NCBI GenBank assembly: GCA_016185505.1
Contig: JACPNL010000002.1
Span: forward strand, 1-51,402
Direction of reading: 5' to 3'
Origin: Candidatus Yanofskyibacteriota bacterium
Lineage (GTDB): Bacteria; Patescibacteriota; Minisyncoccia; 2-02-FULL-40-12; GWA2-44-9
DNA: 51,402 bases
Shown: piece after piece, positions 7,591 through 42,190 of the stretch
Layout of the letters: every line of letters starts with the position of its first letter
How positions within the stretch are numbered: position 1 is the stretch's first letter
Notes under the pieces: model-generated
What the model saw: only the letters and a program-made list of their open reading frames with translations
What the model was told of the DNA's origin: nothing
The model's database searches: none
Made by a program: the position numbers and the translations under genes

Positions 7591-7699
7591 CCTGTGGATA
7601 AACGACTTGTCCCGATTCGTTTTCAACGAATCGAGGATCCTCGATTTGCTAATCATGCTTTACATGAAGCAAATCGGGACGAAGTCGTTTATCCACAGG
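7591..7699. repeat. DnaA-box palindrome (family A) with a 70-bp double-hairpin element (family B, 7610-7679) inserted at its centre
   Basis: cctgtggataaacgacttg[tcccgatt...aatcggga]cgaagtcgtttatccacagg; 39 + 70 = 109 bp exactly. Confidence 0.9.
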
Positions 7700-7715
7700 T
7701 AGAGAATGTAAAGAA

Positions 7716-8603
7716 ATGAATAATAGTAGAGACGTTAAAATTTTCATTATTGCTCCTCTTCTTGCCATCGCTCTTTTTTACGCGGGTAATTTCTTCAAAT
7801 TTTCTGTTCCCGCGCTTGACATAGAGAAGTTGCGCGCCGGAAGCACGGCAAAATTGGAAGAACAGATCATTCCTTTAAAGGGGGCGCGTTTGCCTGTCTC
7901 TTGGGGAAACCTTGGCGTTCAAATGGTTAATACCGGCGTGATAGACGCCGCAAAGTTCGAAAATCTTTATTCCGGCCGAGGAGGCATGAGCGACGAGATG
8001 AAGGGAATCCTTTATGAGGCGGACAACAAAGAATTGGTCATAGCAAAAGATAATGCCGGATTTCTACTGAATGTTCTGTGGGCGCTCGGTCTGAGCAACA
8101 AAAATGATATTTTGGAAAAAGGGCCGATGACGGACAAGCGCTATGGAGGCGCTGACAGATTCGCATCAACGGGCGGCTGGTCCCTCAGTGACGGAAACAC
8201 TATGGAACACTATTCTCGGCACAAATTTCTTATTCTTACCCCCGACCAACAGAAGCTTGTAGAAGAAGTGTCAAAGAATATTTATCGTCCCTGTTGCAAC
8301 AACCCGACTTATTTTCCCGATTGCAATCATGGTATGGCTATGCTGGGACTGCTTGAACTAATGGCATCGCAAGGCATAGGCGAAGAGGAAATATATCACG
8401 CCGCGCTTGCCGTTAACTCTTATTGGTTTCCCGACACATATTCGGCCATAGCTCAATTCCTCCAAACAAAGAACTTTGATTGGCGAAAAGCCGAACCGAA
8501 GGATCTTCTGGGATACAATTTCTCAAGCGCTTCCGGCTATCAGCAGATCCTGTCGGAATTGAAACCGGTTAATGAAAGCGATGGCGGAAGTTGCGGGGTA
8601 TAA
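7716..8603 (+). CDS. Conserved secreted/membrane protein with Cys/His motif, upstream of copA
   Basis: N-terminal TM; YRPCCNNPTYFPDCNHGMAMLGLLELMA. Confidence 0.5.
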   Translation: MNNSRDVKIFIIAPLLAIALFYAGNFFKFSVPALDIEKLRAGSTAKLEEQIIPLKGARLPVSWGNLGVQMVNTGVIDAAKFENLYSGRGGMSDEMKGILYEADNKELVIAKDNAGFLLNVLWALGLSNKNDILEKGPMTDKRYGGADRFASTGGWSLSDGNTMEHYSRHKFLILTPDQQKLVEEVSKNIYRPCCNNPTYFPDCNHGMAMLGLLELMASQGIGEEEIYHAALAVNSYWFPDTYSAIAQFLQTKNFDWRKAEPKDLLGYNFSSASGYQQILSELKPVNESDGGSCGV

Positions 8604-8633
8604 ATGGGTGTATAATAAAAAAAGGGGGTAAAG

Positions 8634-11180
8634 ATGAAAAAAGAGACATACAAAATTAAAGGCATGCACTGTGCCAGTTGCGCCGGAACGATTGAGCGCG
8701 TGCTTTTGCAAACCGCGGGTGTGCGTTCGGCTTCGGTTAATTTTGCTTCAGAATCAGTGCTTATTGAATTTGACGACCGCGTAGTTTCGGAGGAGAGCCT
8801 TGCCGAATCCGTCGGGTCAGTCGGCTATCGGCTTGATGTCGGCGTTCAAACAAAAAAAGAGGCGGCGTCGAGCGGCGGAACTTCCGAGACTATTTCCATA
8901 AAGGTGCTGGGAATGGATTCTCCCCACTGCGCTATGGTTGTTCAGAATGCGCTCAAAAAACTGCCCGGCGTTAAAAATATTGACGTAGATTTTTCAAATC
9001 AACGGGCAAAGGTGATCTTTGCTCCAAAAAAACTCACCGTAAGCGATATCTTTAAAGTGATTACCGACGCCGGCTACAAGCCGATTGAGGAAGAGGGAGA
9101 AGCCGAGGAAGTTTTGGACAGAGAAAAAATAGAGAGAGAAAAACAAGCACGGATTCTTAAAACAAAACTTATTGTCGGCGGCATTCTTTCAGTTTTCATA
9201 TTTCTCGGCAGCTTTCCGGAATGGTTTTCTTTCGTGCCGGCTCTTTTGAGTGATTATTGGACCCTTTTTATCTTAACCACCCCCGTGCAATTCTGGGTCG
9301 GCTGGCAATTCTACAGCGGGCTTAAACTTCTCGTAAAATACCGCACAGCCGACATGAACACGCTGATCGCCATAGGGACCCTCGCCGCGTATTTTTACAG
9401 CGCGTCTGTTGTTGTGTTCCCGGATTTCTTTGCAAAAGGGGGGATTGCGCCGAAAATCTATTTTGACACTTCGGCCATCATTATTGTTTTGATCCTTTTA
9501 GGAAAATATTTTGAGATATTGATGAAGGGACGCGCTTCGGAGGCAATTAAAAAACTGGTAGGGCTTCAGCCGAAAACCGCAAAAGTTTTGAAAGACGGAA
9601 AAGAAATCGAAATGCCTATCAGCGAAGTGCAAGTCGGAGATTTGATAGTAGTTCGTCCGGGAGAAAAAATTCCCGTTGACGGGAAGATCACCGAGGGCGA
9701 CTCGGAAATTGACGAATCAATGGTAACGGGAGAGTCAATGCCGGTCCACAAAACGGTTGGCGGCGCGGTTATCGGCAGTACGGTGAATAAATTCGGCGCC
9801 TTCACGTTTGAGACAACCAAGATCGGCAAAGATACGGTTCTTTCTCAAATTATTAAAATGGTAGAAGAAGCCCAAGGATCTAAGGCGCCGATTCAGCGTC
9901 TTGCCGATTTGGTTTCTTCTTATTTTGTTCCGGTTGTAGTAGCAATCGCCATTCTCACTTTTCTCGTTTGGTTTTTCTTCGGTCCTTCTCCCGCTTTTAA
10001 TTTCGCCCTTGTTAATTTCGTGGCGGTTCTTATTATCGCTTGTCCCTGCGCGCTTGGTCTGGCAACGCCGATGGCAATCATGGTTTCATCCGGCAGCGCG
10101 GCCGTCAAGGGGATTCTGGTAAAAGACGCCGCTTCGCTTGAAACCGCGAACAAGATTGATACTATAATTTTGGACAAAACAGGCACGCTTACTCAGGGCA
10201 AGCCGCAGTTAACCGATATAATTTCTTTTGAAAATGAAGATCGGGCGGATATTCTTTCTTTCGCCGCGTCTCTTGAACAAAGATCGGAACATCCCTTGGC
10301 GCAGGCGATCTTACGATATGCCGCGAGTTTGGACCAAAAATCATCACATTCGCTTGATAAAGCGATAATTGATAGGGCCAAAAAAGAAAAGATTGAACTA
10401 TATAAACTGCTTGATTTTAAGGCAATTTCAGGAAAAGGCTTGCGAGGTTCTCTTCAGGTCGGCGACCAAAAAATTGAGGCCTATTTGGGAAACAGAGCGC
10501 TTGCGGCGGATGTTGGTTTGGATGTATCTATTTACGAAGATAGAATCAAGAAGCTTGAGGATGAGGGGAAAACAGCGATGATCCTTATCGTTGAAAAGCG
10601 TATTAAAGGCGTTCTTGCCGTTGCTGATGTGTTAAAGGAAGAATCCGTTAAGGCGGTAAAAATTTTGCAACAAAGCGGTATAGATGTTTGGATGATCACC
10701 GGAGACAATGAACGCACCGCTCGCGCCATTGCCGGCCAGGTGGGAATAAAAAATATAATGAGCGAAGTTCTGCCCGATAAAAAATCAGAAAAAGTGCGCG
10801 AATTGCAGGCGCAAGGCAGAATCGTGGCAATGGTGGGCGACGGCATTAACGATGCGCCGGCGCTTACCCAATCCAATGTCGGCATCGCCATGGGCGAGGG
10901 AACAGACATTGCGATGGAATCGGCCAACATTACTTTGATGAGAGGAGATTTGATGCTTATTCCGGAAACGATAAAACTGTCAAAACAAACGATGAGAATA
11001 ATTAAACAGAACCTGTTTTGGGCATTCTTTTACAATTCCGCGTTTATTCCCGTTGCGGCGGGCGTTCTCTATCCATTTTTTGGAATTCTGCTTAATCCTA
11101 TTTTTGCCGGCGCTGCGATGGCGTTCAGCAGTATCAGCGTTGTGTTTAATTCGTTACGATTGAAAAACGGCGGAACATGA
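8634..11180 (+). CDS. copA: Copper-translocating P1B-type ATPase
   Basis: HMA domain GMHCASC, TM motif [34 protein letters not shown]. Confidence 0.93.
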
Positions 11181-11280
11181 TTATTATGATAAACGCGGAG
11201 TGGTCGAGCCTCGTCTATCTCGGTAGATTTCGACGGGTGAACGCGTTTTTAAGTTAAAATATTAAAGTTAAAAATAATGA

Positions 11281-11412
11281 ATCCCGTTAGAAGTCCTGGA
11301 CAGAAAAAATTTCAAGAAAATTTTTTCTTACAAACTTTAACGGGTATATAATTTTAACAAAGATCTGTTCAAGTTCAGCCCTGTGCTGAATAAGACGGAC
11401 TTCTAACGGGAT
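11281..11412. repeat. Inverted repeat ending in the start codon of the 11411 CDS
   Basis: atcccgttagaagtcc ... ggacttctaacgggat; 16-bp arms, right arm ends on AT of ATG. Confidence 0.85.
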
Positions 11413-11788
11413 GAATAAAAAAATAGAATGGGTGTTGCGAATCGCGGTGGCCGGAGAGTTTATCGGTCATGGCGTGTTTGCGCTTCAAGGTCGTCAATCG
11501 TGGGTTGATTGGTTTTCAATTTTTGGTATTTCAGATGTCGGAACGGCGGCAACTCTTTTGTGGCTGGTTGGCTTGATAGACGTTTTGCTGGCCGTGTTAA
11601 TCCTGATAAGGCCGGTTCGTTTGGCGCTTCTGTGGATGGCATTCTGGGGATTTTGGACGGCGCTTATGCGCCCGATCGCCGGAGATTCAATTTTTGAATT
11701 TGTTGAGCGTTGGGCTAACTGGGGCGCGCCGCTTGCGTTGCTATTATTAGTCGGCTGGCCGAAGTCGTTTAAAGAGTGGTTTAGGTAA
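11411..11788 (+). CDS. DoxX-like membrane protein
   Basis: Four hydrophobic helices; RIAVAGEFIGHGVFAL. Confidence 0.5.
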   Translation: MNKKIEWVLRIAVAGEFIGHGVFALQGRQSWVDWFSIFGISDVGTAATLLWLVGLIDVLLAVLILIRPVRLALLWMAFWGFWTALMRPIAGDSIFEFVERWANWGAPLALLLLVGWPKSFKEWFR

Positions 11789-11807
11789 TCATATTTTAGA
11801 TAACCAT

Positions 11808-11930
11808 ATGATGTACGGAAATTGGTCCATGATGTCGGGGGCGTGGGGATTCGGATTCCTCACCTGGCTGGTGGTCTTTGTAGACCTCGTTCTCCTCGGC
11901 GTCTGGCTCTGGAAACAAGTTAGTAAATAA
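11808..11930 (+). CDS. Small membrane protein (40 aa)
   Basis: Own translation MMYGNWSMMSGAWGFGFLTWLVVFVDLVLLGVWLWKQVSK*. Confidence 0.5.
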   Translation: MMYGNWSMMSGAWGFGFLTWLVVFVDLVLLGVWLWKQVSK

Positions 11931-12082
11931 AAGGACTCCTCCCTAGAATAAAAAAGCCGTTTTTAGGCGGCCTTTTTTAGGTTGGCTGATCGAATTTGTT
12001 CAAGAGTTTGTTTAAATAATTTAAAAAGTTGTATTTAGGCGTGGTGTGGATTTAGTTGATGTTATAATTTTTTTGTGCTACT

Positions 12083-12433
12083 TTGTTGTCCAGTACTTTA
12101 TTTAATGTGAGAGAACAAGATATGTGCTGGAGGGACGATATTGTTACAGAGCGTTATTGTTCAGATTGCGGCCAAGAATACTACGGCGACTTGGGTCATA
12201 GGGGTTGCCCCACTCTTGCGAGAAAAACAGAAGATCCTTTTAGTGAAGAGATTACTGCCGTAGCGACGAGACACGGGTGGGACGTAGAGACAACCAAAGA
12301 TAAAATCAAAAGAACTCAAGAGATTTTGGCCTTACAATCTTCACAAGAAGCAATAGATTTTCTTCTGGAAGCCATACCGAACACCAAGCAAGATATTATC
12401 ACAAAACTTGAAGAAGATAATCCTCCATTTTAA
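12083..12433 (+). CDS. Hypothetical protein with putative N-terminal zinc ribbon
   Basis: RYCSDCGQEYYGDLGHRGCP; start may be the ATG at 12122. Confidence 0.4.
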   Translation: MLSSTLFNVREQDMCWRDDIVTERYCSDCGQEYYGDLGHRGCPTLARKTEDPFSEEITAVATRHGWDVETTKDKIKRTQEILALQSSQEAIDFLLEAIPNTKQDIITKLEEDNPPF

Positions 12434-12459
12434 TGCCAACTCTGTTGGCCCTTTTTAAA

Positions 12460-13530
12460 CTAGAAAACAAGAGTAAGAATTATTGCTGTTCCGATGGGTA
12501 CGAGGAGGTTGTCGTCTATGAGGAATGAAAATTGGTCGAGAATTGCCGTTGATAGCGCGGCGATGATCATGAAATTTAAAGAAAGGTCCAGTCCGGCAAG
12601 GGATCTAAGGAAAATTCCTGTAATTAGGCAAAGAATAAAAATAAGAACCGCTCCACCTATTGTTTTCCCCTTTATCGTTTCTTTTGCCATAAAAACCAAA
12701 CCAAGCGGAGCAAAAACGTCGCCGATTATAAAGAAACTCAAACTAATGACCACTATTTCTTTAGGGAAAACCCAGAAAATCGCAAATGCGCTTGCCAGGA
12801 AAAAAGTATAACCGGAAAGTCGCTTTAATTCTTTTGTTTTTGCTAAACTTTTTAAAGCCAAGTACCGGCGGTTAAGCGCGGGCAAGATAAATCTCATTCC
12901 GTCCAAGACCAGAGAAACAACAAGCAGAACTCCAACAAAGACCAACAAAAATTTTTGCGAAACAACTAAATATCCCAACGGCAAAACCAAAGCCGTCAGT
13001 TTTAGAAACTTTCTGACCGGCGCCTCGGACAGAACTTTTTTAATTTCCGGTCTTTGGGAAATCGCGATGGTATAAAAAATCGTGGTTATGAAGAGAAACA
13101 GGGCAAAAACAGAAAGAGTATGAAACCATACGATCAGGTTAAGCCCGTAAAGAGAGGCAACGCCTCTTCCGCCGCGAAAGTTCAAGTAAAAAGGGAAAAC
13201 ATGGCCGGCAACGGCTGCAAGGCCAATAAGTATGGCAACGTCTGGGTTAATACCTGTGGATAAACGACTTGCGAAGTCGTTTATCCACAGGGGATTTAAA
13301 ATCAATCCCTTTACGGCAATGAAATAGGCGGTAGCGGCCTTGAGCGCGTCAAAAATTCCGGTGATAACGCCATAAACCGGCCCGACCTCACGGTATGTGT
13401 TGGACGCGCCGGTGTTTTTGTTCTTGCCGACTTCCCGAAGGTCAACACTTTTAATGACTCGGCCGAAGAAATACCCTGGAGAAAGGGAACCAAGCAGATA
13501 TCCGAGTCCTAGAAAAATTACGATATTCAT
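12460..13530 (-). CDS. plsY: Glycerol-3-phosphate acyltransferase PlsY fused to a C-terminal multi-TM dolichol-kinase/CTP-transferase-like domain
   Basis: GYLLGSLSPGYFFGR...GNKNTGASNTYR...AGHVFPFYLNFRGGRGVAS; second multi-TM half; ATG at 13530. Confidence 0.8.
   Translation of the reverse strand: MNIVIFLGLGYLLGSLSPGYFFGRVIKSVDLREVGKNKNTGASNTYREVGPVYGVITGIFDALKAATAYFIAVKGLILNPLWINDFASRLSTGINPDVAILIGLAAVAGHVFPFYLNFRGGRGVASLYGLNLIVWFHTLSVFALFLFITTIFYTIAISQRPEIKKVLSEAPVRKFLKLTALVLPLGYLVVSQKFLLVFVGVLLVVSLVLDGMRFILPALNRRYLALKSLAKTKELKRLSGYTFFLASAFAIFWVFPKEIVVISLSFFIIGDVFAPLGLVFMAKETIKGKTIGGAVLIFILCLITGIFLRSLAGLDLSLNFMIIAALSTAILDQFSFLIDDNLLVPIGTAIILTLVF
13253..13291. repeat. DnaA-box palindrome (family A), in-frame inside plsY
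   Basis: cctgtggataaacgacttgcgaagtcgtttatccacagg; encodes LWINDFASRLSTG on the minus strand. Confidence 0.95.
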
Positions 13531-13579
13531 ATCTGACTTTATTTTACAATATGCTAGTATTAATTTATAGAGGATTAAG

Positions 13580-14353
13580 ATGGGAATTTTTGAATCAATA
13601 ATTCTTGGGGTTGTTGAAGGTTTTACCGAATTTTTGCCCATATCATCAACGGGGCATCTTATTTTATCTTCATATTTATTGAAACTGGAACAAAGCAGCT
13701 TTCTGACAAGTTTTCAGATAGCGATACAGCTGGGCGCGATATTGTCGGTGGTAGTTCTATATTTCAAAAAATTTCTTCTAAACACGGAAGTTATCAAAAG
13801 AATTGCCGTTGCTTTTTTGCCTACTGCCGTTGTCGGATTTTTGCTCTATGGATTTATAAAAAATGTTCTTATTGGGAGCACGGTTACCGTACTTTGGTCT
13901 TTGCTTTTGGGCGGTGTTGCTTTAATCATTTTTGAATTTTGGTATAGAAGCAAAGAATTAACACACGAAAAAAACGTAGCTGATATTTCCTATGCTCACT
14001 GCTTTTTCATCGGACTTTTCCAAACAGTTGCCGTTGTCCCCGGCGTGTCTCGCGCCGGTGCGACCATACTAGGAGGATTATGGCTTGGGGTGCCGAGGAA
14101 AACAATAGTGGAATTCTCTTTCTTGCTTGCTCTGCCAACAATGGCCGGAGCTACGGGGCTGGATTTGCTCAAAAACGCGTCTAGTTTTTCTTATGATCAG
14201 TTTAGTATTCTTGCTGTGGGTTTCGTTGCTTCGTTTGTTACCGCGATGCTGGCTATCAAGTTTTTGCTGTCTTTTATTCAGAAACACACTTTTGCCCCAT
14301 TTGGCGTTTATAGAATAATTATGGCTATTGTGTTTTTTCTGTTTTTGTTGTAA
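13580..14353 (+). CDS. uppP: Undecaprenyl-diphosphatase
   Basis: GVVEGFTEFLPISSTGHLIL...PGVSRAGATILGGL. Confidence 0.92.
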   Translation: MGIFESIILGVVEGFTEFLPISSTGHLILSSYLLKLEQSSFLTSFQIAIQLGAILSVVVLYFKKFLLNTEVIKRIAVAFLPTAVVGFLLYGFIKNVLIGSTVTVLWSLLLGGVALIIFEFWYRSKELTHEKNVADISYAHCFFIGLFQTVAVVPGVSRAGATILGGLWLGVPRKTIVEFSFLLALPTMAGATGLDLLKNASSFSYDQFSILAVGFVASFVTAMLAIKFLLSFIQKHTFAPFGVYRIIMAIVFFLFLL

Positions 14354-14398
14354 AATTTTTCACAGGATAACAGGCATTATCTACAAAAAGGAAGGCAG

Positions 14399-15046
14399 AT
14401 GCTCTTTAACCAATGGTTATTAGTTTTGGGAACCGCCGCCGTATTGCTTATGGTGGGCTATTTTATAAAATTAATCAGGTCTAAGAATAACTGGATCAAA
14501 ATAGTTACTTTTACCGGTCCATCCGGGGCAGGCAAGACGACTATTATCGGAGAACTACTTAAAAAGCATCCTAGATGGAAAATGGTCTTGAGCTTGACCT
14601 CAAGAGAGTCAAGAGGCGGGGACTTACCGGGCGAATACAGATGTAATGTTTCCAGAAAAGAATTTTTGCGGATTAGAAAAGAGAAAAGAGATTTGTGGAT
14701 AGAGTCGGTTCATGGGAATATGTACGCGACGCTTAAAGTTGATGTTGTTAACGCTCTTTTGTCCGAAGGATTGTCTCTGATGAATCTTATGCCGGTTTCG
14801 GTTAGAAAAATTCGCGCTTATGCCTCTGGTCAGGTGCGGTCTATTTTCATACTTCCGCCAAGTGAGAAAGAATTAAGACGGCGTCTTGTGAAAAGGGGCG
14901 AGTTGCCCGAGCAGATAGACAAGAGAATAGCCGACTGCAAGAAATGGGAAGAGGAAGCAAGGTTATCCGATATTCCTTACGAATTTGTAAAAAATGACGG
15001 GACGGTTGAAGAAGCGGTTGAGCGGGTGGAAAGAATTATAGATTAA
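14399..15046 (+). CDS. Guanylate kinase-like P-loop protein with N-terminal TM
   Basis: TFTGPSGAGKTTIIGELLKKHP...LTSRESRGGDLPGEYR. Confidence 0.7.
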   Translation: MLFNQWLLVLGTAAVLLMVGYFIKLIRSKNNWIKIVTFTGPSGAGKTTIIGELLKKHPRWKMVLSLTSRESRGGDLPGEYRCNVSRKEFLRIRKEKRDLWIESVHGNMYATLKVDVVNALLSEGLSLMNLMPVSVRKIRAYASGQVRSIFILPPSEKELRRRLVKRGELPEQIDKRIADCKKWEEEARLSDIPYEFVKNDGTVEEAVERVERIID

Positions 15047-15105
15047 AACATTTGATGTTATATCCCCAGTTAGGGGATTTTTAGTTTTTTAAATAGTGTG
15101 TTAGT

Positions 15106-15849
15106 GTGATTCTTATGGAAGAAAATAATAATTTAGAACAAAAATCTAGGGTCGAGGCATCAAAATTTGATTGGACAAAATTTATAATGCCAGGAGCGAT
15201 AGTGCTGGCTGGTGTTTTGATAAGCGCGGCTGTGCTTTATTCTGGCGGCGGAGGTTCTGGCCGCCCCGCTGCCGATATTGGCTCTGGGGTTAAGCCGCAA
15301 GGACAGATAGCCGTCTCTGCCGACGATGACGCATATCTCGGCGACAAAGACGCGCCGGTGGTGATGATAGAGTTCAGTGACTTACAATGTCCGTTCTGCC
15401 GCTCATTCTGGCGGGACACGTTGCCGCTTATTAAATCGGAATATATAGACACCGGCAAAGTCAGATTCGTATATAGGGACTTTCCTTTAAGTTTTCATCC
15501 CGGAGCGATGCCGGCCGCGCAAGCCGTCGAATGTGCTGAGGAAAAAAGCAAGTTCTGGGAGATGCACGATAAGATATTCATTGAGCAGGACAAACAAGGT
15601 TCGGGGACGATCCAATTCGGCGTTGGCGACTTAAAGAAGTGGGCCGGCGAGATTAATTTGAACGCGGGCAAGTTTAATTCTTGCCTTGATTCTCAAAAAT
15701 ACGCCGAAGAGGTCAATAATGACGCGAAAGACGGCCAGGCCGCCGGAGTAACGGGTACGCCGGGATTCTTTATTAACGGTCGACTGGTAGTAGGCGCGCA
15801 GCCATTTAGTGTGTTTAAGTCCGTCATTGACGAGGAACTTAAAAAATAA
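15106..15849 (+). CDS. DsbA-family thiol:disulfide oxidoreductase
   Basis: MIEFSDLQCPFCRSFW...VRFVYRDFPL...GVTGTPGFFINGR. Confidence 0.9.
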   Translation: MILMEENNNLEQKSRVEASKFDWTKFIMPGAIVLAGVLISAAVLYSGGGGSGRPAADIGSGVKPQGQIAVSADDDAYLGDKDAPVVMIEFSDLQCPFCRSFWRDTLPLIKSEYIDTGKVRFVYRDFPLSFHPGAMPAAQAVECAEEKSKFWEMHDKIFIEQDKQGSGTIQFGVGDLKKWAGEINLNAGKFNSCLDSQKYAEEVNNDAKDGQAAGVTGTPGFFINGRLVVGAQPFSVFKSVIDEELKK

Positions 15850-15988
15850 TTATTCTAATTTCTAATTACTCTAATTATTCTAAATAATGACTAATGTCCA
15901 ATTTCTAAATGACCAAACCGGCTTAGTCATTTAGTCATTAGGATTTATTTAGGTCAATTAGGTTAATTAGAATAATTAGGTTAATTGA
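15850..15988. repeat. AT-rich inverted-repeat word mosaic (family F copy 1) upstream of the cupredoxin gene
   Basis: ttattctaatttctaattactctaattattctaa ... gtcattaggatttatttagg ... ttaattagaataattaggttaatt. Confidence 0.8.
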
Positions 15989-15990
15989 TT

Positions 15991-16500
15991 ATGACCAAAC
16001 TAATATTACTAACAATTGTCGCAATAGTGTTGGTCGGAGTAGTGGTTTTCCTATATTCAGGTGATACGGTTCAGGCACCCGGTTCTTCGCCAACGCCAAC
16101 GACTACGGACAATGTGCCAGTGCCTACTCCTACGCCGACTCCGGTTAACGAAGAATCGTCATCGCCCTTGCCTACAGTATCAGAATCGAAAGTTACCGTA
16201 ACGTATTCCGATTTCGGCTATGGCCCCGCGATCGTTACGGTGGAAAAAGGCGATACGGTTATTTTTGATAATAAGGGCTCAAAGATGATGTGGACCGCTT
16301 CCGCGGTTCATCCGACCCACAAGACCTATCCCGGTTCAGATATCGCGTTTTGCGGAACGCCCCAGTCGATTAGCGCATTCGATGCTTGCAAGGGTTATGG
16401 GTCCGGTGAATCGTGGGAGTTCAAATTTGATCATCAGGGGACTTGGAAATATCACAACCATATGCAGGCGAATCATACGGGAACGATAGTGGTGGAATAA
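15991..16500 (+). CDS. Cupredoxin-like (plastocyanin/azurin fold) secreted protein
   Basis: VTVEKGDTVIFDNKG...WKYHNHMQANHTGTIVV; ORF opens at 15985, ATG 15991. Confidence 0.7.
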   Translation: MTKLILLTIVAIVLVGVVVFLYSGDTVQAPGSSPTPTTTDNVPVPTPTPTPVNEESSSPLPTVSESKVTVTYSDFGYGPAIVTVEKGDTVIFDNKGSKMMWTASAVHPTHKTYPGSDIAFCGTPQSISAFDACKGYGSGESWEFKFDHQGTWKYHNHMQANHTGTIVVE

Positions 16501-16507
16501 TTTATAA

Positions 16508-16600
16508 AACCGTTGGAAGTGTTGGAAGTGTTCGAAATGACGGAAATGTATTCAACTCCAACAATTCGATCATAGCGAAGCGGTCCATCAACTCGAACGA
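16508..16600. repeat. Word-mosaic inverted repeat (family G copy 1) upstream of the VKOR gene
   Basis: gttggaagtgttggaagtgttcgaaatg ... caactcgaacg. Confidence 0.6.
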
Positions 16601-16605
16601 TTTTA

Positions 16606-17016
16606 ATGGTTTTTTCTTCTGTAATTATAATCTTCATCGCTTTTAGCGGGTTTCTGCTGGCCGCTTATATAAGGCACAAGAAGGTCTCCAAAGAGACTCT
16701 TGTTTGTCCCTTAAAAGCCGACTGTGACACGGTCATATTCAGCGATTACTCGAAATTTTTTGGAGTGCCGGTGGAACTTTTGGGGATGGCATACTATTTA
16801 ACTGTTGCTGTCGCTTACGGAGTTTTTCTCTCCGTTCCAGTTGATATGCCGCAAGTCATAGTATTGGGAATTTTCTCTATAACTGTTATCGCGTTCCTTT
16901 TCTCTCTTTATCTTACCTTCGTACAGGCGTTTGCTTTGAAACAGTGGTGTACGTGGTGTCTTATCTCAGCCGGCTTTTGCACCGGTATCTTTTTTCTGGT
17001 CTTGTTGGCGGCCTAA
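16606..17016 (+). CDS. Vitamin K epoxide reductase (VKOR) family protein
   Basis: ETLVCPLKADCDTVIFSDYSKFFGVPVELLGMAYY...WCTWCLISA. Confidence 0.85.
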   Translation: MVFSSVIIIFIAFSGFLLAAYIRHKKVSKETLVCPLKADCDTVIFSDYSKFFGVPVELLGMAYYLTVAVAYGVFLSVPVDMPQVIVLGIFSITVIAFLFSLYLTFVQAFALKQWCTWCLISAGFCTGIFFLVLLAA

Positions 17017-17216
17017 CCCCTTGCAAAGGAAGTTGCGTTGTGATATACTTAAATTATTGTAGGTTTCTCTGTCGGTAGTTTCCATCTAATCAACTAGTTA
17101 GTAGGAACTTGAGACGGAAGGTCGGTCCTACTAATAAAATCATCTACGAATAACGAATCTAGTACGAATTTACGTATTCGTATATTCGTAAGTAATTCGT
17201 AATTCGTAGGTTTAAA

Positions 17217-17558
17217 ATGGAGAAGAAATTATACATAGGTGGTTTGTCATACAACACCACCGATACCGGACTGAAGGACGCGTTTTCTCAAGCCGGTGAA
17301 GTTGTTTCTGCCGCAGTTATCACGGACAAAATGTCCGGCCGTTCAAGAGGCTTCGGCTTCGTAGAAATGGCCACAGAAGAGGATGCCCAGAAAGCCATTG
17401 ATATGTGGAATGGCAAAGAGTTAGATGGCAGAACGCTGATAGTCAACGAAGCCAAACCGATGGCCGATCGCCCGAGGAGAACAGGCGGTTTTGACAGAGA
17501 CAGAGGCGGCCGAGGAGGTTTCGGCGGCGGAGGTTATGGCGGAAGAAGGGACTACTAG
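17217..17558 (+). CDS. RRM-type glycine-rich RNA-binding protein
   Basis: KLYIGGLSYNTTD...RGFGFVEM...Gly-rich tail. Confidence 0.93.
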   Translation: MEKKLYIGGLSYNTTDTGLKDAFSQAGEVVSAAVITDKMSGRSRGFGFVEMATEEDAQKAIDMWNGKELDGRTLIVNEAKPMADRPRRTGGFDRDRGGRGGFGGGGYGGRRDY

Positions 17559-17622
17559 TTAATTTTTCGCAATGCGAAAAATTCGCGGAAGTTCGCGGAC
17601 TTAACGCAGAAAAACGCGGAAA

Positions 17623-17656
17623 AACAAAAATTGCCCAAAAGGCAATTTTTGTTTTA
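17623..17656 (+). terminator. Rho-independent terminator
   Basis: aaaaattgcc-caaaa-ggcaattttt-gtttt. Confidence 0.75.
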
Positions 17657-17739
17657 TTAAAGCGAATCCGTGCGGGTCTATTTTGATATTTAATGTTGTT
17701 TGTGTATAATTTCGGAAGCTCTTTTTAGAAGGATTAATA

Positions 17740-18369
17740 ATGCTCAAAGAGCCGGGAACGATTACTTTGTTTGCTGGTCCCATGAGGTCGTCAAAATCAA
17801 GAAAATTGATAGAAGCCATAAGAGACCATGAGCGCGCAAAATTAAAAATTCTCGTCGTTAAATCGCCCGAAGACACTAGAGACGGTGATAAGATAGTAGC
17901 CAAAGAAATTGTTGACGGTAAGCCGATAATTATGATGCCACCCTTGAACGCCCGTTTTGTGAATAATAAGCGGGATGTTTTAAGATTAGTGAGGAAAACC
18001 CATTGTGAGGTTTTTGCGGCTGATGAAGTGGAGTTTTTTGGTCGGTGGTTTGTTGACCTAGTTCAAGAACTGGCTTTTGAAAGAAAGATGATCGTGCTGC
18101 TTGCCGGGCTTGATCTAGACGCTTGGCGCAAGCCGTTTGGTATAATGCCGCAGCTATTGGCTCACGCTACATATACGCCAAAAGTTCAAGCGAGTTGTTT
18201 TGTATGCGGCCGTCTGGCCCAATTCACCCAAAAAACAGGGGGTGATCCCCGCAAGCGGTTTGAACCGGGCGACTTTTACGAAGCAAGATGTTTTCGTTGT
18301 CATGTTATGCCGGAGGATCTGGTAGCAGAATCATTGGGGGCATCAATAGTTATTAAGGTATCAAGTTGA
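17740..18369 (+). CDS. tdk: Thymidine kinase
   Basis: LFAGPMRSSKSRKLI...ADEVEFF...AGLDLDAWRKPFG...C..C and C..C zinc ligands. Confidence 0.9.
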   Translation: MLKEPGTITLFAGPMRSSKSRKLIEAIRDHERAKLKILVVKSPEDTRDGDKIVAKEIVDGKPIIMMPPLNARFVNNKRDVLRLVRKTHCEVFAADEVEFFGRWFVDLVQELAFERKMIVLLAGLDLDAWRKPFGIMPQLLAHATYTPKVQASCFVCGRLAQFTQKTGGDPRKRFEPGDFYEARCFRCHVMPEDLVAESLGASIVIKVSS

Positions 18370-18384
18370 TGCCTTTTTGTTTCT

Positions 18385-18423
18385 CCTGTGGATAAACGAC
18401 TTGCGAAGTCGTTTATCCACAGG
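18385..18423. repeat. DnaA-box palindrome (family A)
   Basis: cctgtggataaacgacttgcgaagtcgtttatccacagg. Confidence 0.95.
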
Positions 18424-18459
18424 TTTGTTGAAAGGCGTTTCTTTGCTATCTTATTCTGT

Positions 18460-18798
18460 ATGCGTTTCAATATCCCCAAAAACGATTCAAAATATCACTG
18501 GACACAGCATTCCGTGAGAAAAATGCTGTTTTACGGTTTAACGGCAGATAGGGTCAAGAGAATTATCAGAAATCCTAAAAGAATGGAAAAGGGGATAGTT
18601 CCCGATACACTGGCGGCTATGCAACCGGTGGGAACAAAAAAGAAATCCACTGAAGTGTGGACAATGTATGCGGTCAAGGGCCAAAAGAAAATCATAATTA
18701 CGGCTTGGCGATATCCAAGCACAAGTCCGGTAAGAGGCGAAATACCGATACCGGCGGATATTTTGGCCGAATTAAAAGAAGATGGGATTGTGATATAA
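18460..18798 (+). CDS. Hypothetical protein, possible DUF4258-like toxin-type fold
   Basis: ATG at 18460; HSVRKMLFYGLTADRVKRIIRNPKR...TMYAVKGQKKIIITAWR. Confidence 0.5.
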   Translation: MRFNIPKNDSKYHWTQHSVRKMLFYGLTADRVKRIIRNPKRMEKGIVPDTLAAMQPVGTKKKSTEVWTMYAVKGQKKIIITAWRYPSTSPVRGEIPIPADILAELKEDGIVI

Positions 18799-18799
18799 T

Positions 18800-19030
18800 A
18801 TGACTATGATGTATAACAATTTTTTGCTGGCTCTTGGCCCGGGCTGGATGACAGTCGTTATTTTACTTGCCGTTTGGTCCCTTGTATGGAAAGGAATGGC
18901 TCTGTGGAAATCAGCTCGCCGCGCCCACAAGGTCTGGTTTGTTGTCTTGCTTGTTACCAATACCGTAGGTATTCTCGACATTCTCTATCTTTACGTTTTC
19001 TCAAAAAAATCTAAGTCTGTGGAAAGATAG
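18800..19030 (+). CDS. DUF5652-like small membrane protein
   Basis: LVWKGMALWKSARRAHKVWFVVLLVTNTVGILDILYLY. Confidence 0.65.
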   Translation: MTMMYNNFLLALGPGWMTVVILLAVWSLVWKGMALWKSARRAHKVWFVVLLVTNTVGILDILYLYVFSKKSKSVER

Positions 19031-19165
19031 AATTTTATTATTAGAATAATGAGATACTGAAACTGCTTCGGCGATTGTAGCGGAGATTTTAGGTTGACAA
19101 AATTTTTTTGAATATTATCATTTATTTAATCTTCATTTAGCTCTTTTAAATACTGAGGGCTCTCT

Positions 19166-19738
19166 ATGGCCATGGCTCGGATTTTGGCTTCTTTCTTTAC
19201 CGTATTTATGTTGGCGGGGACGATTTTAAATGCTCAAGATAGGCAGAATAATCAGATTGGTGTCGTTGCTGTAACAGAATGTTGCGCGGAAGAATGGAAA
19301 AAAGTTGTTGAGGTAACAAAAGAAGATTATCCCCATCTTACTCGCGTGTGGCTATTCGCTCTTGCGTTTCAAACCGAAAAGCCGGTTTCATATGTAGAGA
19401 ATAACTGCATAGAAATTGGTCCCGAAACGATTTTATGCCGGCTGTACATTACTGGAACTTTGCAAACGATCCTTATGCCAGAAGAGTTTTTGGGCGTTAT
19501 TGCCCACGAAGTTGGACACATTGCTAATAAAGATTTCGAGAACGAAAACCCAGAAAAACGTTCTCTCTCTATAGAAAAACGAGCTGACCTGTTTGCTTTC
19601 ATTACGCTTAGGCGTCTGAACGTGAGCCCCGCAGTTATATTGAGTGCTCTTGAAAAACTTACTTCAAAAGAGGATGCAAATGCGCAAAAAGAAAAGGATC
19701 ATAGAATCAAAGCTCTTAAAAAACTCTTGATTCGTTAG
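19166..19738 (+). CDS. Secreted M48-like zinc metallopeptidase
   Basis: Signal peptide; GVIAHEVGHIANKD...EKRADLFAF. Confidence 0.7.
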   Translation: MAMARILASFFTVFMLAGTILNAQDRQNNQIGVVAVTECCAEEWKKVVEVTKEDYPHLTRVWLFALAFQTEKPVSYVENNCIEIGPETILCRLYITGTLQTILMPEEFLGVIAHEVGHIANKDFENENPEKRSLSIEKRADLFAFITLRRLNVSPAVILSALEKLTSKEDANAQKEKDHRIKALKKLLIR

Positions 19739-19806
19739 ATGATAAAAACATAACCGTTTTGATAAAATAATCCGAACCTTTTCGGGTTATTTTTAATATT
19801 GCAGGG

Positions 19807-21120
19807 CTAGGATTTGAATTGATTTAAAAACCTGTTTTTAAATTGCTTAAATCTGTTGTTTTTTATTGACCTGCGGATTTCTCCAAGCAAGTTATTGAAG
19901 AACCAAACGTTATGAAGGGTGGCATAACGCCTACCCTGAGCTTGCCGAATAGGTTTGGTGCTTTTAAACAATTTATACAATTTCAATCTCGTCATTCTTC
20001 TTAAACAAACCGAACACCCGCAATCTCTCTCGAGCGGAATGTCGATATTACGAAATTTCGATATGTCGAAATATTCGGTCTTGGTGTAGATGCGGCCGTG
20101 GCGGGCTTCTCTCGTTGGGATAACGCAGTCAAACAGGTCTATCCCTTGCTCAACGGCATTAAAGATGTCTTCTACTTTGCCTATACCCAGAAGGTGTCTT
20201 GGTTTTTCTTCCGGCAAGTAGGGGACAATCCACTTAAGCGTTTCAACCATCTCGTCTTTTCCGAATGAACCTCCGATGCCGATGCCGTCAAACGGCAAAG
20301 AACTGATAAATTTCGCGCTTTTAACGCGCAGCGATTTAAATCTTCCCCCTTGAACGATGCCAAATAACATCCCCGACGCTTCTCCGACGCTTTTGGTCGG
20401 AGTTCCGGTCGGGGCTCCGACTTCATTTCGTGAGCATCGGAGTTGATTCTTTTTGTGCTCACGCAAACATACCTTTGCCCAGGCATGCGTTCTCTCAAGC
20501 GCCTGTTTGTTGTAATCAAATCCATCCAAAGGAGATGTGCATTCGTCAAAAGCGAATATAATATCTGCTCCCAGTTTTTCTTGAATTTTCATTGAAAGCT
20601 CCGGTCCGAGGAATTTCCAGTCCTCCCGATTTTTTACCCGCGCTTCGCGCAGAAAAAATCGAGGATCCTCGATTTTGCGACCAAGCTTTGCTTGGGCAAA
20701 ATCGGGACACTTAAAGCGGACACCTTTGGCGGTAATCCTTATGTTTTGCCTGTGGATAAACGACTTCGCAAGTCGTTTATCCACAGGGTTTAGAATTTTG
20801 CCCACCTTATTTTCTTTGCCGAATCCAAGTGAAAAAACCTGGAACCCCCCGCTGTCGGTCATTATAGGAATTTTAGCCCTTAAAATTCCTTGAATTTTTA
20901 ACTTAGAATTTTGAATTTTTAAAGCTCGGTCCCACAAATGGTAGGTATTGCAGATCACAACTTGGGTCTTTGTCTTTTTGATGTCTGATGGTTTTAAACA
21001 TTTTACTTCGGCGTGAGTGGCGACTATTACATAGGACGGGGTTTGGATCTTGCCGTGAGGCGTGCTTAAAACGCCCAAACGGGCCTTTGTATATTTGTCT
21101 TTCTTGACGATGTTGAACAT
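19807..21120 (-). CDS. tgt: Queuine tRNA-ribosyltransferase carrying in-frame palindromic insertions
   Basis: MTDSGGFQVFSLG, FDECT, GIVQGG, GIGGSFGK, LLGIGKVEDI, DCVIPTREARHG, C.C..C zinc ligands. Confidence 0.92.
   Translation of the reverse strand: MFNIVKKDKYTKARLGVLSTPHGKIQTPSYVIVATHAEVKCLKPSDIKKTKTQVVICNTYHLWDRALKIQNSKLKIQGILRAKIPIMTDSGGFQVFSLGFGKENKVGKILNPVDKRLAKSFIHRQNIRITAKGVRFKCPDFAQAKLGRKIEDPRFFLREARVKNREDWKFLGPELSMKIQEKLGADIIFAFDECTSPLDGFDYNKQALERTHAWAKVCLREHKKNQLRCSRNEVGAPTGTPTKSVGEASGMLFGIVQGGRFKSLRVKSAKFISSLPFDGIGIGGSFGKDEMVETLKWIVPYLPEEKPRHLLGIGKVEDIFNAVEQGIDLFDCVIPTREARHGRIYTKTEYFDISKFRNIDIPLERDCGCSVCLRRMTRLKLYKLFKSTKPIRQAQGRRYATLHNVWFFNNLLGEIRRSIKNNRFKQFKNRFLNQFKS
20624..20707. 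repeat. Double-hairpin element (family B), 84 bp = 28 codons, in-frame inside tgt
   Basis: tcccgatt-X-aatcgaggatcctcgatt-Y-aatcggga, same frame as 7610-7679. Confidence 0.9.
20749..20787. repeat. DnaA-box palindrome (family A), in-frame inside tgt
   Basis: 39 bp = 13 codons, encodes PVDKRLAKSFIHR on the minus strand. Confidence 0.95.
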
Positions 21121-21168
21121 AAAAGTCGCCTTATATTATACACCCGCTTATTAATAAAAACCCATCTC

Positions 21169-21987
21169 TTATCGGACGGGTTGGTTGAGACGGTAGTTGT
21201 GCCACTCCCAGACCAATTTTCTGGTTCTGTGGCCAAAGAACCATCCTTGGCGTATTTGATACATTATCTCTGTGTTGGTCAATATAACAATATTATTGAG
21301 CTCGGCCGCTATTTCTTGATCCAGGATCATGGAGCTCATAGTTATTTTGGCCAAAGAATCGGGGGCATATGGGACATCGGGATTAAACGATCTTGTAAGT
21401 TCTCCTACATATCTCCTGATGAATAAATACTCTTTATCAATATACATGAAACCGCTCATTCTAATGGCGGCCTCGTGGATGCCTCTGTCTTTGGCGCTGG
21501 CGTTTAGCGGGACGATCAGGTCAATGTTGGGCAGGACCGCTTTGGATCCAAACCAGAAGACATAACAGTCGCACTCAAATTGATATTTCTCCGGAAGACC
21601 TCGGTAATAATCGCTGTTTCGTTCCATAAAAACATAGTCATAGCCCAAGATAAGTATTTTGCCTAAATTGACAGAGTATCCTCCGTCGTCGCCTCGTTGT
21701 GCCGCGGGATACGCGTTGCCGTGTTTTGAAGTTTCAGTTTCAAGGGGATTGGTACAATTGCCTTTCTGATCCGATGCCTTACAGCCCCCGTCTGATTTGA
21801 GATCATATTCTTTTCTGGTTCTTTCAAATGAGACAAATTCTGTTTTAAGTATGTCGTTCTTGGTCATATTTTCTATGACATGTTTCATAAGCTCGTCAGC
21901 AGACAACACTATCTGCGAGTAAGCCGAATTAGCCCACAAAACCCCCACAATAACGGCCAAAAAAACCGGGGAACTTCGTATCCGCAT
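21169..21987 (-). CDS. Secreted hypothetical protein (outer-membrane-lipoprotein-sorting-like fold possible)
   Basis: Signal peptide MRIRSSPVFLAVIVGVLWANSAYS; long ORF. Confidence 0.5.
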   Translation of the reverse strand: MRIRSSPVFLAVIVGVLWANSAYSQIVLSADELMKHVIENMTKNDILKTEFVSFERTRKEYDLKSDGGCKASDQKGNCTNPLETETSKHGNAYPAAQRGDDGGYSVNLGKILILGYDYVFMERNSDYYRGLPEKYQFECDCYVFWFGSKAVLPNIDLIVPLNASAKDRGIHEAAIRMSGFMYIDKEYLFIRRYVGELTRSFNPDVPYAPDSLAKITMSSMILDQEIAAELNNIVILTNTEIMYQIRQGWFFGHRTRKLVWEWHNYRLNQPVR

Positions 21988-22093
21988 GGTTCTCCTCTTT
22001 CTATGTCAAAAAACAAATATGTAAAGCACGATACAACATTTTCCCTGCCTTAGCAAGATTGTGTGGATAACGGGTTTATGCTAATTTTTTTAC

Positions 22094-22327
22094 ATGGCTA
22101 ATATAAAAATATACACAACTCCAACTTGCGCCTTCTGTAAAATGGCAAAAGAATATTTCAAATCAAAAAGTTTAGAATATATCGAATACGATGTGTCAAA
22201 AGACATTCCTCGGCAAAAAGAAATGATAGATAAGACCGGCCAATTCGGCGTGCCGGTGATAGATATAAATGGGCAAATTGTTATAGGATTTGATAAACCA
22301 AAAATTGACCAGCTACTTGGTTTATAG
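22094..22327 (+). CDS. Glutaredoxin-like protein
   Basis: IKIYTTPTCAFCKMAKEYF...GVPVIDINGQIVIGFD. Confidence 0.9.
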   Translation: MANIKIYTTPTCAFCKMAKEYFKSKSLEYIEYDVSKDIPRQKEMIDKTGQFGVPVIDINGQIVIGFDKPKIDQLLGL

Positions 22328-22420
22328 TTAAATTAAAAATTAAATATCAAATATCAAAAACACAGATTAAAAATAAAAAATTTTTGAATTTTGATTTGTC
22401 ATTTTGATTTTTAATTTAGT
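22328..22420. repeat. AT-rich word-mosaic inverted repeat upstream of sod
   Basis: aaattaaaaattaaatatcaaatatcaaaa ... ttttgaattttgatttgtcattttgatttttaattt. Confidence 0.65.
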
Positions 22421-22423
22421 GTA

Positions 22424-23038
22424 ATGCCTAAGAAAACATTTAAAGAACTAGCATATAAATCCGACTCTCTGAAAGGTATTTCCCAAAAGACGATAGATAT
22501 TCATCACGGCAAGCTATACAAGGGCTACGTGGATAAGTCCAACGAGATAAAGGATAAATTAAGGCCGATAGTTCAAGGCGGAAAAGCCGAAGGCAACCAG
22601 ACATACAGCGAACTCCGCGCGTTAAAGAACGGAGAGAGTTTCGCTAACAATGGTGTTTATCTGCACGAAAATTACTTCGCCGTTCTTGGTGGCGATGGTA
22701 CACCAAAAGGCGAGGTTGCCGAGCGTCTCGCGGAACGATACGGTTCTATTGATGGCTTCAAAACATATTTCTCCGCTTGCGGAATGGCGGCGCGCGGGTG
22801 GGCGATACTGGCTTGGGATCTCCACGAGAAAGAGCTGCGTATATTTACCGCAGATGCCCAGAATCACGGCGGTATCTGGGGTGCCATACCTGTCTTATGT
22901 CTGGACGTATACGAGCATTCATATTTCATAGACACCGGTTCCGATAGGAAGTCCTATATAGAATCATTTTTTAATAACCTCAACTGGGACAAGATTGAGG
23001 CGTTTTATCAGAAGGCGAAACGAGGCGAAGCCGAGTGA
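22424..23038 (+). CDS. sodA: Fe/Mn superoxide dismutase
   Basis: IDIHHGKLYKGYVDK, GVYLHENYF, LDVYEHSYF ligand regions. Confidence 0.88.
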   Translation: MPKKTFKELAYKSDSLKGISQKTIDIHHGKLYKGYVDKSNEIKDKLRPIVQGGKAEGNQTYSELRALKNGESFANNGVYLHENYFAVLGGDGTPKGEVAERLAERYGSIDGFKTYFSACGMAARGWAILAWDLHEKELRIFTADAQNHGGIWGAIPVLCLDVYEHSYFIDTGSDRKSYIESFFNNLNWDKIEAFYQKAKRGEAE

Positions 23039-23135
23039 AGCCTCGCGTATTTATGGTAGCTGACTTGACAGCTGGCTTTGTTTTATATATACTCCAATCA
23101 CGATCTTAAACAACTTATAGAGAGGGAAGAACATA

Positions 23136-23690
23136 ATGAAGCAGCAAAGTTCTCAAACTTCTCGTCAGTTTTTGATTGATACATTCAAGTATTGGAACTT
23201 CTCGTCTGATACGGTATCTCTTGTTGAACAAAACTCCCGCCGTCCTCGGCGTATATCCCCCTTGGATATGCCATGGGGCAGGATGACCACAGATATTGAC
23301 GCAGGAAAAGTTGGCCAATATACTATAAACCCTGAAGTTCCGCGGGACTTTAGTGAAAAACGAATGCACATACCTTTCAGACAAGAACTTCAATCCCTTG
23401 AAGGCCGACCTTTGTTTGAAGTTGCCGCTCTTGTTTCGGCGAGATACGGCCGTACCCATATCATTCCCGGCATTGAGTATTGGAAATATGTGTTTGAAAA
23501 TCCTGACAAAGCCCCTGGTCTATTAAAAGATGGAAATTATCATTATTTCTTCGGTTCAGTCTTCCGTGGCTCGGTCGGCGACTGGGATGTGCCGATCGCG
23601 CATCGGGGTAGTTCGCGTTTAAGGCGGTACGGACATTGGCTGGTCGGCCCGTGGGTCTCCTGCGGCCGCGTTGTCCTCCTCGAGAAGTGA
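23136..23690 (+). CDS. Putative DGR-type variable protein (C-type-lectin-like C-terminus)
   Basis: IPGIEYWKYVFENPDKAPGLLKDGNYHYFFGS...RYGHW...RVVLLEK, paralogous to the C-terminus of the 29038-31287 CDS. Confidence 0.65.
   Translation: MKQQSSQTSRQFLIDTFKYWNFSSDTVSLVEQNSRRPRRISPLDMPWGRMTTDIDAGKVGQYTINPEVPRDFSEKRMHIPFRQELQSLEGRPLFEVAALVSARYGRTHIIPGIEYWKYVFENPDKAPGLLKDGNYHYFFGSVFRGSVGDWDVPIAHRGSSRLRRYGHWLVGPWVSCGRVVLLEK
23561..23690 (+). other. Putative DGR variable region VR1
   Basis: Differs from 31151-31287 mainly at codon positions 1/2 in an otherwise near-identical frame. Confidence 0.65.
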
Positions 23691-23750
23691 TTTTTATTTT
23701 TGAATTTTTGTTCTCTTTTCTTTGAATTTTGATTTTTTGAAATTTGTTTT

Positions 23751-23795
23751 GCGGCTTGCGCTAGGTTTCCTTGTAAACGGCGCAAGCCGTTTTTG
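23751..23795 (+). terminator. Rho-independent terminator-like hairpin
   Basis: cggcttgcgc ... gcgcaagccg ttttt. Confidence 0.65.
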
Positions 23796-23799
23796 CTTC

Positions 23800-23838
23800 C
23801 CTGTGGATAAACGACTTGCGAAGTCGTTTATCCACAGG
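23800..23838. repeat. DnaA-box palindrome (family A)
   Basis: cctgtggataaacgacttgcgaagtcgtttatccacagg. Confidence 0.95.
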
Positions 23839-23911: not shown

Positions 23912-25321
23912 TTATCTCCAACTCGCGAACCATATTCTGGTATTGTATGCTTTTTCCGACAGCGGTAGGCCATAGTTTAAGGGAGAGAAGAAAAGAAACG
24001 CGACAATGGCGGCGATTATAATTCCCGTGAAAATTTTTCGGGAGTTTTTTCCTGCGGTGAGCGACTCGTCCTGAGTTTTATCGAAGGAAGTCAAACTGGT
24101 TTGGTCAACCAGATAAACAAGTATTAGAATCGCAAAAATCAGAGCAGTTAGGTAGTGATATAGAAACATCACCCGTTTAACGCCGATAAAAGGCAGTAGA
24201 TTGAGGAAATATCCGCCCAAAAGAATTGTTAAAACCTTGTCCGGGATTCTTTTCTTAATGCTTAATACTAAATACTTAACACTGATTGCGACAGCAATCA
24301 TAGAGGCCCACCAAATTATTGGATTGCCGAAGAAGTAAATTCTGGCCGTATCCTTAACCCAATAATATATCGGCCTTGTCATAAGCGGCCAAGTGTACCA
24401 CTGGCTGCCGTAAGGATGAGTAGCGCCTAGCCGCTGATTGGACTTATACATCTCAATATTCAAGTTCGCTATATTTTTTAGCATGCCTTGTTCACGAAAA
24501 TCAGGTTTCATGAAAGCATCACCGGGGCCGGGCTTGGGCAGAAGCGAAAAGTGTAGGGCAAAAACAGAAAAATAAATAGCGAGGGATATGAAGAAAAAAG
24601 AGGCAAACTTCAAAACCGACATAAAATAAGCGATTGCTTGTTTTATGTCGGCTCTTTTGAACCTTAGAGTTTTGGCTGATTCAATTAAAATCGGCAAAGC
24701 AATGAAACTTAACCCTGTCCATTTGACAGAAATGGCTAAGCCGGCGAAGACGGCCATTAGAATTAAGTTAGCATGAGAACCTATTCTCAAATTCTTAAGA
24801 ATTTGAGAATAGGTTCTTTTATCTTGGTTTTTGTTTCGGCATCTGTATCTGAAATAAAATAATAAAGAAGTGAAGCCGAACAAAAGCAGGAATGGATCAA
24901 GAAGCATAAGCCGGGACTGGGTTAACAGCGCGTTATCGAAAATTATGAATAGACTGGCCGCGAAAGCGCCTATTCTTGAAATGCCAATCTGTAAGGCCAG
25001 AAGAAATATAATAATAGGCAGTAAAGTTCCTGCCATGGCGGGCAGAAAACGCAAAGCCAGATATTTTTTATCGGGAAATTCTTTGCCAATCTCGGTAAAA
25101 TTATATTCAGGCCTGAAATCAACTATTTTCGCAAAACCGGCGATTATCAATTTGCCTAAAGGCGGGTGGATGTCAAAGTAGTATTCTCCGGTATAATATC
25201 CTGACACAAATTTGCCGAAATGAACTTCGTCAAAGACTGTTTCATTGGGTTGCCCGAAAAAGGCGAAGTGCGTCGCTATGCTTAAGGATAGAATTATAAA
25301 TATTAACTTTTTATTGGTCAT
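23912..25321 (-). CDS. Dolichyl-phosphate-mannose-protein mannosyltransferase (PMT) family glycosyltransferase
   Basis: FDEVHFGKFVSGYYTGEYYFDIHPPLGKLIIAG; multi-TM. Confidence 0.88.
   Translation of the reverse strand: MTNKKLIFIILSLSIATHFAFFGQPNETVFDEVHFGKFVSGYYTGEYYFDIHPPLGKLIIAGFAKIVDFRPEYNFTEIGKEFPDKKYLALRFLPAMAGTLLPIIIFLLALQIGISRIGAFAASLFIIFDNALLTQSRLMLLDPFLLLFGFTSLLFYFRYRCRNKNQDKRTYSQILKNLRIGSHANLILMAVFAGLAISVKWTGLSFIALPILIESAKTLRFKRADIKQAIAYFMSVLKFASFFFISLAIYFSVFALHFSLLPKPGPGDAFMKPDFREQGMLKNIANLNIEMYKSNQRLGATHPYGSQWYTWPLMTRPIYYWVKDTARIYFFGNPIIWWASMIAVAISVKYLVLSIKKRIPDKVLTILLGGYFLNLLPFIGVKRVMFLYHYLTALIFAILILVYLVDQTSLTSFDKTQDESLTAGKNSRKIFTGIIIAAIVAFLFFSPLNYGLPLSEKAYNTRIWFASWR
24776..24817. 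repeat. 42-bp perfect palindrome in-frame inside the PMT gene
   Basis: agaacctattctcaaattcttaagaatttgagaataggttct. Confidence 0.95.
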
Positions 25322-31287: not shown

Positions 31288-31327
31288 TTTTTGTTTTTGA
31301 ATTTTTGTTCTCTTTTCTTTGAATTTT

Positions 31328-31513
31328 GATTTTCTCGGCTGGGTACATTTTACTGACCATCGTGTTTTGCGAGCAAAAACAAAAAGAAGGATGTTGGTAA
31401 AACTGAACAGAGCATCTGAAACTTCCGTCGCTTCGTATAAAGGTCTTCTGAAACACGGCAACATGTATAAATTATCTGAAAAGCTGTTTGGCTTTGAAGA
31501 TAAAATGTATTAA
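31328..31513 (+). pseudogene. Truncated DGR-type reverse transcriptase (C-terminal remnant only)
   Basis: DFLGWVHFTDHRVLRAKTKRRMLVKLNR...SYKGLLKHGNMYKLSEKL resembles the DGR RT C-terminus; no room for the catalytic domain upstream. Confidence 0.65.
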
Positions 31514-37676: not shown

Positions 37677-37822
37677 AACCAGTGAAATTAACCTAATTTC
37701 TAATTAACCTAATTATTCTAAAGAAACCCCAATACTAAAACGTCTAATGTCTAAAATTTTTTGGTCATTTAGTCATTAGGATTTATTTAGGTTAATTAGA
37801 GCAATTAGAATAATTAGAAATT
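37677..37822. repeat. AT-rich inverted-repeat word mosaic (family F copy 2) upstream of fba
   Basis: cctaatttctaattaacctaattattctaa ... gtcattaggatttatttagg ... aattagaataattagaaat. Confidence 0.8.
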
Positions 37823-42002: not shown

Positions 42003-42190
42003 TTATCTATAAAATTATTCTAATTATTCTAATTGCTCTAATTATTCTAAATAATGTCTAATCATTTAATGACCAAGTCGTCTTAGTCATTAGGCCATTG
42101 GGGTTTATTTAGGCCAACTCCGACGTTATTAGTCGGAGAGCCGACTAATAACGTCGGCTTTAGGTTAATTAGAATAATTAGGTTAATTCA
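42003..42190. repeat. AT-rich inverted-repeat word mosaic (family F copy 3) with a nested GC-rich palindrome at 42120-42157, upstream of tsf
   Basis: Shares the cattagg...ttatttagg core and ttaggttaattagaataattaggttaatt with copies 1 and 2; nested ccgacgttattagtcgg-agag-ccgactaataacgtcgg. Confidence 0.8.

Follow-up and report, generated by a model that had tools for sequence, protein, structure and literature searches.

A 39-bp palindrome with DnaA-box matches brackets a RAYT-like transposase gene and lies in frame within genes of Candidatus Yanofskybacteria

According to Nunvar 2010 (PMC2817692), RAYT genes are always flanked by two REPs, with which they co-evolve. REPtrons combine a short dispersed palindrome with a RAYT gene located between two of its copies, each RAYT having a palindrome of its own (PMC2817692, PMC6006769, PMC8266576). 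For TnpA_REP of E. coli, published work shows processing of REP hairpins that are single-stranded; a second group of REPs consists of perfect palindromes (PMC8266576). Inverted repeats other than GTAG REPs also flank RAYT-like genes, as in the atypical-REP TnpA subclasses (PMC6006769) and in TIRtrons (Di Nocera 2013, PMC3733652), where the repeats (TIRs) are at times self-complementary and amplified (also PMC6006769). PMC3733652 also describes in-frame palindromes in genes of many unrelated functions, namely Rickettsia palindromic elements and intragenic GTAG/CGTC REPs, with intragenic REPs and RPEs found in repair genes among others, and mentions CGTC repeats, some RPEs included, that were reported without an associated transposase.

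We analyzed a stretch of 51,402 nucleotides (the window) from contig JACPNL010000002.1 of assembly GCA_016185505.1. The genome (G000) is a draft of 681,192 bases in 32 contigs, and its named relatives are Candidatus Yanofskybacteria, Patescibacteria. As the first-pass annotation had reported, the window contains five copies of a dispersed palindrome, four uninterrupted copies of 39 bp and one interrupted copy of 109 bp (Table 1). The 39-mer itself is real, although its letters had been printed slightly wrongly (cctgTGTGGATAA); read from the window DNA, it is CCTGTGGATAAACGACTTGCGAAGTCGTTTATCCACAGG, a perfect palindrome consisting of the arm CCTGTGGATAAACGACTT, a GCG centre, and the arm AAGTCGTTTATCCACAGG. 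All ten 18-bp arms were exact (7591/7682, 13253/13274, 18385/18406, 20749/20770, and 23800/23821), and the GCG and CGC centres are one palindrome seen from opposite strands, in line with the earlier description of copies that have identical arms and differ only in the orientation of the centre. Both arms of each copy carry TTATCCACA, the perfect DnaA box that had also been noted. Shuffled sequences gave an expectation of 0.04 arm matches in the window at up to three mismatches, and TGTGGATAA was observed 12 times against 0.44 expected. The density of five copies in 16 kb exceeds the genome average (Poisson 5e-4). As a single strand, the 39-mer is predicted to fold into a hairpin whose 18-bp stem closes a 3-nt loop (-19.3 kcal/mol, z -13.4).

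Table 1. Palindrome copies, the second element, and their host genes in the window
Feature	Position	Strand	Context
Composite copy, 109 bp	7591..7699		39-mer with 70-bp double-hairpin insert at apex; intergenic
PlsY-like glycerol-3-phosphate acyltransferase ORF	12460..13641	-	Hosts the 13253 palindrome
39-bp palindrome	13253..13291		In frame in plsY-like gene, residues 117-130, LWINDFASRLSTG
39-bp palindrome	18385..18423		Just 3' of thymidine kinase ORF 17740-18369
tgt (tRNA-guanine transglycosylase)	19807..21120	-	Hosts palindrome and second hairpin element
Second multi-hairpin element (TCCCGATT...AATCGGGA), 84 bp	20624..20707		In frame in tgt
39-bp palindrome	20749..20787		In frame in tgt, residues 112-124, PVDKRLAKSFIHR
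39-bp palindrome	23800..23838		Between convergent ORFs 23136-23690 (+) and 23912-25321 (-; protein O-mannosyltransferase-like)

The insert of the interrupted copy (TCCCGATT...AATCGAGGATCCTCGATT...AATCGGGA) sits between the G and the CG of the GCG centre and belongs to a second dispersed element. This element comprises at least two hairpins with variable inner stems and is present in about 20 copies in G000, at least seven of which are located at the apex of a 39-mer. The inserts of these composite copies are near-identical to one another. The copy of the second element within tgt was missing from the other tgt proteins aligned.

The window also contains other repeats. An AT-rich dispersed repeat (AATTATTCTAATTATTCTAA ... 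TTAGTCATTAGGATTTATTTAGG) occurs in both orientations at 15848-15990, 37686-37819, and 42013-42192, and apparently also near 13,500 in contig C3 of G000. A 274-nt direct repeat with 84% identity is found at 23463-23736 and 31060-31333, and Rfam identified tRNA genes at 43375-43446 and 45835-45905.

When the search was extended to the whole draft genome, 46 exact arms and a few more with one to three mismatches were found, forming 26 two-armed elements (19 of 39 bp and seven composites of 109-123 bp); thus, the 39-mer is not limited to the contig on which it was first noticed. The arm search tolerated up to three substitutions, so that conservation over all copies is somewhat overstated, although comparisons of orthologous sites agree with it. 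Among 40 relatives, the exact arm was found only in two congeners. A looser box-pair pattern matched 12 times in G001 and eight times in G002, both of the same genus as G000, and six times in G020, which belongs to another genus of the same family; there were two further, unrelated single matches. In a collection of 84,980 genomes, from which records of the window's own genome were possibly left out, a pattern of 26 fixed bases matched only three species, all Candidatus Yanofskybacteria. The pattern had no match in viral contigs.

At least 10 of the 26 copies in G000 are internal to ORFs, with several in core genes. The 39-mer spans 13 codons and is open in four of the six reading frames, which would let insertions survive in protein loops; in-frame copies correspond to 13-residue inserts, which would be translated with their hosts. 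Beyond the window, G000 has in-frame copies in genes that match alaS, mnmA (with two copies), a gene for a class V aminotransferase/cysteine desulfurase (iscS-like), an O-antigen-ligase-like gene (with two composites), and a TPR protein gene, and also in a 609-residue ORF that is apparently hydrophobic around the insert. All three composites of 109 bp, a length that is not a multiple of three, lie outside long ORFs; the 111- and 123-bp composites number four, and three of these lie within genes. In the plsY-like gene the insert falls inside the Pfam acyltransferase domain. The tgt insert occupies a loop that is variable across the family; this site is filled in G000, G001, G002, and G020, whereas most family members are without the insert, including G011 of the same genus as G020. 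At the N-terminal mnmA site, G001 has unrelated residues instead.

A gene for a Y1_Tnp protein (PF01797, above cut-off) is located exactly between two copies of the palindrome in G000, G001, G002, and G020, which is the arrangement of a REPtron. The G000 protein shares 73-82% identity with those of the other three genomes, and the HxH motif (H89, H91) and downstream catalytic Tyr (Y149) that mark the Y1/HUH domain of RAYTs are present and invariant in the alignment. NCBIfam REP_Tyr_transpos (NF047646) matched the G000 protein at E 7.9e-13 with 48.5 bits, below the curated cut-off of 80; the transposase is related to RAYTs, and we do not claim it as a canonical member. A search of solved-structure sequences with it gave nothing significant. 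Seven copies of the palindrome are clustered within 6.3 kb at this gene (Poisson 7e-9), and their relative orientation around it is uninformative because the copies are symmetric. RAYT homologues were found in 15 of 28 genomes of the family, many of them flanked by palindromes of their own. The nearest ones outside the four genomes are those of G006 and G011 (69% and 68% identity), whose palindromes keep a CGAC core and lack the DnaA box; among the G006 copies listed, most lie in long ORFs.

Beside the RAYT gene of G000, a segment of about 1.5 kb with several ORFs (C3:18237-19791, L059:6238-7792) lies between two variant palindromes with a CCGACATTGAATGTCGG centre. At its place in G001 and G002, the alignment passes from the neighbouring gene directly to the RAYT-side palindrome. 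A second, more distant Y1 transposase is encoded at C29:23595-23993 of G000, with a 21-bp palindrome, TGTGGAGGGCCGCCCTCCACA, alongside. The palindrome beside this gene is a different one, and the gene could not be tied to the multi-hairpin element.

The element differs from REPs in that it is a fully symmetric 39-bp hairpin with no conserved GTAG head: neither GTAG nor GTGG is conserved at the hairpin foot, the adjoining base is T in 65 of 106 flanks, and TAG was found in only 10. Its copies number 6-26 per genome, far below typical REPs, and many are intragenic, whereas REPs are described as high in copy number and mainly intergenic. Compared with the TIRs of TIRtrons, sequence and host differ, and the part of PMC3733652 drawn on here describes no intragenic spread for those TIRs. 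The likeness to RPEs is one of insertion mode, with palindromes inserted in frame at tolerant positions; unlike the CGTC repeats of that source, for which it reports no transposase, the present element brackets a RAYT gene. No paper was returned by a full-text literature search that combined RAYT with 'candidate phyla radiation'. As far as the literature searched shows, the lineage, a fully symmetric intragenic element bracketing a RAYT gene, and dialects at shared sites are new.

Eleven groups of sites were aligned by their flanks. The flanks are 60-81% identical, and most arm pairs show 0-2 differences over 36 positions; this does not hold for degenerate copies in the TPR gene, the copy downstream of RAYT, and the tgt and wzy-b copies of G020, with one end-base difference each. 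The dialect is a single variable base pair at arm position 12. In both arms this position is A in 23 of 26 copies in G000, T in seven, A in five, and mixed in one in G001, T in seven and A in one in G002, and C in all six in G020. The majority dialect of the own genome was carried by 43 of 50 copies, a value reached in none of 20,000 permutations. The 18385 copy has an ortholog in G001 with the T dialect, and the G001 copy at C14:135659 has A in one arm and T in the other.

The iscS, C-terminal mnmA, and C3:32764 sites fall at exactly the same codon between genomes. The tgt and wzy-a sites are shifted by a few codons, so part of the sharing may represent repeated insertion into a tolerant loop. 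At wzy-b, an asymmetric end base common to G000 and G002 favours common descent; the inner element is present there in G000 and absent from G002. Uniform arms at shared sites need overwriting, gene conversion, or purifying selection. The coexistence of dialects and the mixed-arm copies favour replacement in progress, and the copies appear to have been homogenised after insertion.

Arm conservation at orthologous sites could also reflect selection on a binding site instead of copying. The palindrome might be a conserved chromosomal site for another protein, parS-like or of the DNA-uptake-sequence type, whose specificity drifts between species and gives rise to dialects; arms that barely change while flanks diverge and a genome-wide dialect are consistent with this. 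We nevertheless regard it as improbable given the bracketing of RAYT and the clustering of copies around it, the sites unoccupied in relatives, the existence of composite elements, and the presence of two dialects together in G001 and in G002.

The first-pass annotation had named DnaA-titration or timing sites spread by mobility as one possibility. On this reading, the paired perfect boxes would bind DnaA and would have spread for their help in regulating initiation. The box is perfect in both arms and nearly invariant between copies, which are kept at orthologous positions, and the lineage's DnaA has the canonical C-terminal motif GGRDHSTVIHA. However, CGAC and other non-box bases are just as invariant, and conservation spans nearly the whole arm. 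The palindromes of the closely related RAYTs in G006 and G011 dispense with the box, which is therefore private to this lineage, and one RAYT-flanking copy in G001 has it altered in both arms to TGTAGATAA. Many copies also lie in frame within genes, and no cluster of perfect boxes is found beside dnaA. Other occurrences of TTATCCACA include a pair 29 bp apart near the RAYT locus in the four genomes, which was considered as an origin and in G000 lies within a glycosidase-like coding sequence. The titration proposal is thus very unlikely. Given a perfect box match and the canonical look of DnaA in this lineage, DnaA may bind the 39-mer, but no finding requires it to explain the spread, and the resemblance to DnaA boxes is probably incidental. 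A role as bidirectional transcription terminators or mRNA-stabilising hairpins, suggested by the strong hairpin and by copies after gene ends such as 18385, is hardly credible with so many copies mid-ORF and a sequence conserved far past hairpin needs.

The 39-mer is best explained, in our judgment with good probability, as a REP-like palindrome that is mobile but non-autonomous and depends in trans on the RAYT-type Y1/HUH transposase that two of its copies bracket, tolerating intragenic sites in the manner of Rickettsia palindromic elements. The other proposal of the first-pass annotation, a mobile palindrome in which the DnaA boxes are coincidental, is supported by the position of the RAYT-like gene between two copies in each of the four genomes, the unoccupied sites, and the near-identical composite inserts. 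By analogy with E. coli TnpA_REP, whose general mode of action the enzyme would share, the single-stranded 39-mer would fold into a hairpin that RAYT recognises, cuts, and joins to new target positions; replication forks, where DNA is single-stranded, are the probable setting. Insertions in protein loops would pass selection, so that the element persists within and between genes. Target-site duplications, excision products, and polymorphism within one population were not seen.

Resident copies would be kept uniform in each genome, either because RAYT-linked copies overwrite them repeatedly or through gene conversion, giving rise to dialects. More tentatively, and with less than even confidence, we suggest that the RAYT system itself also overwrites resident copies and that shared ancestral in-gene insertions changed together to a new dialect. 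Half-switched copies would then be intermediates, and protein loops would be recoded in step with the transposase-linked sequence.

In the streamlined Patescibacteria, these findings put a Rickettsia-type palindrome found within genes, a kind of element whose mobiliser was unclear, next to an enzyme that is a candidate for mobilising it. Shared sites with genome-specific dialects provide a natural record for testing how palindromes stay uniform.
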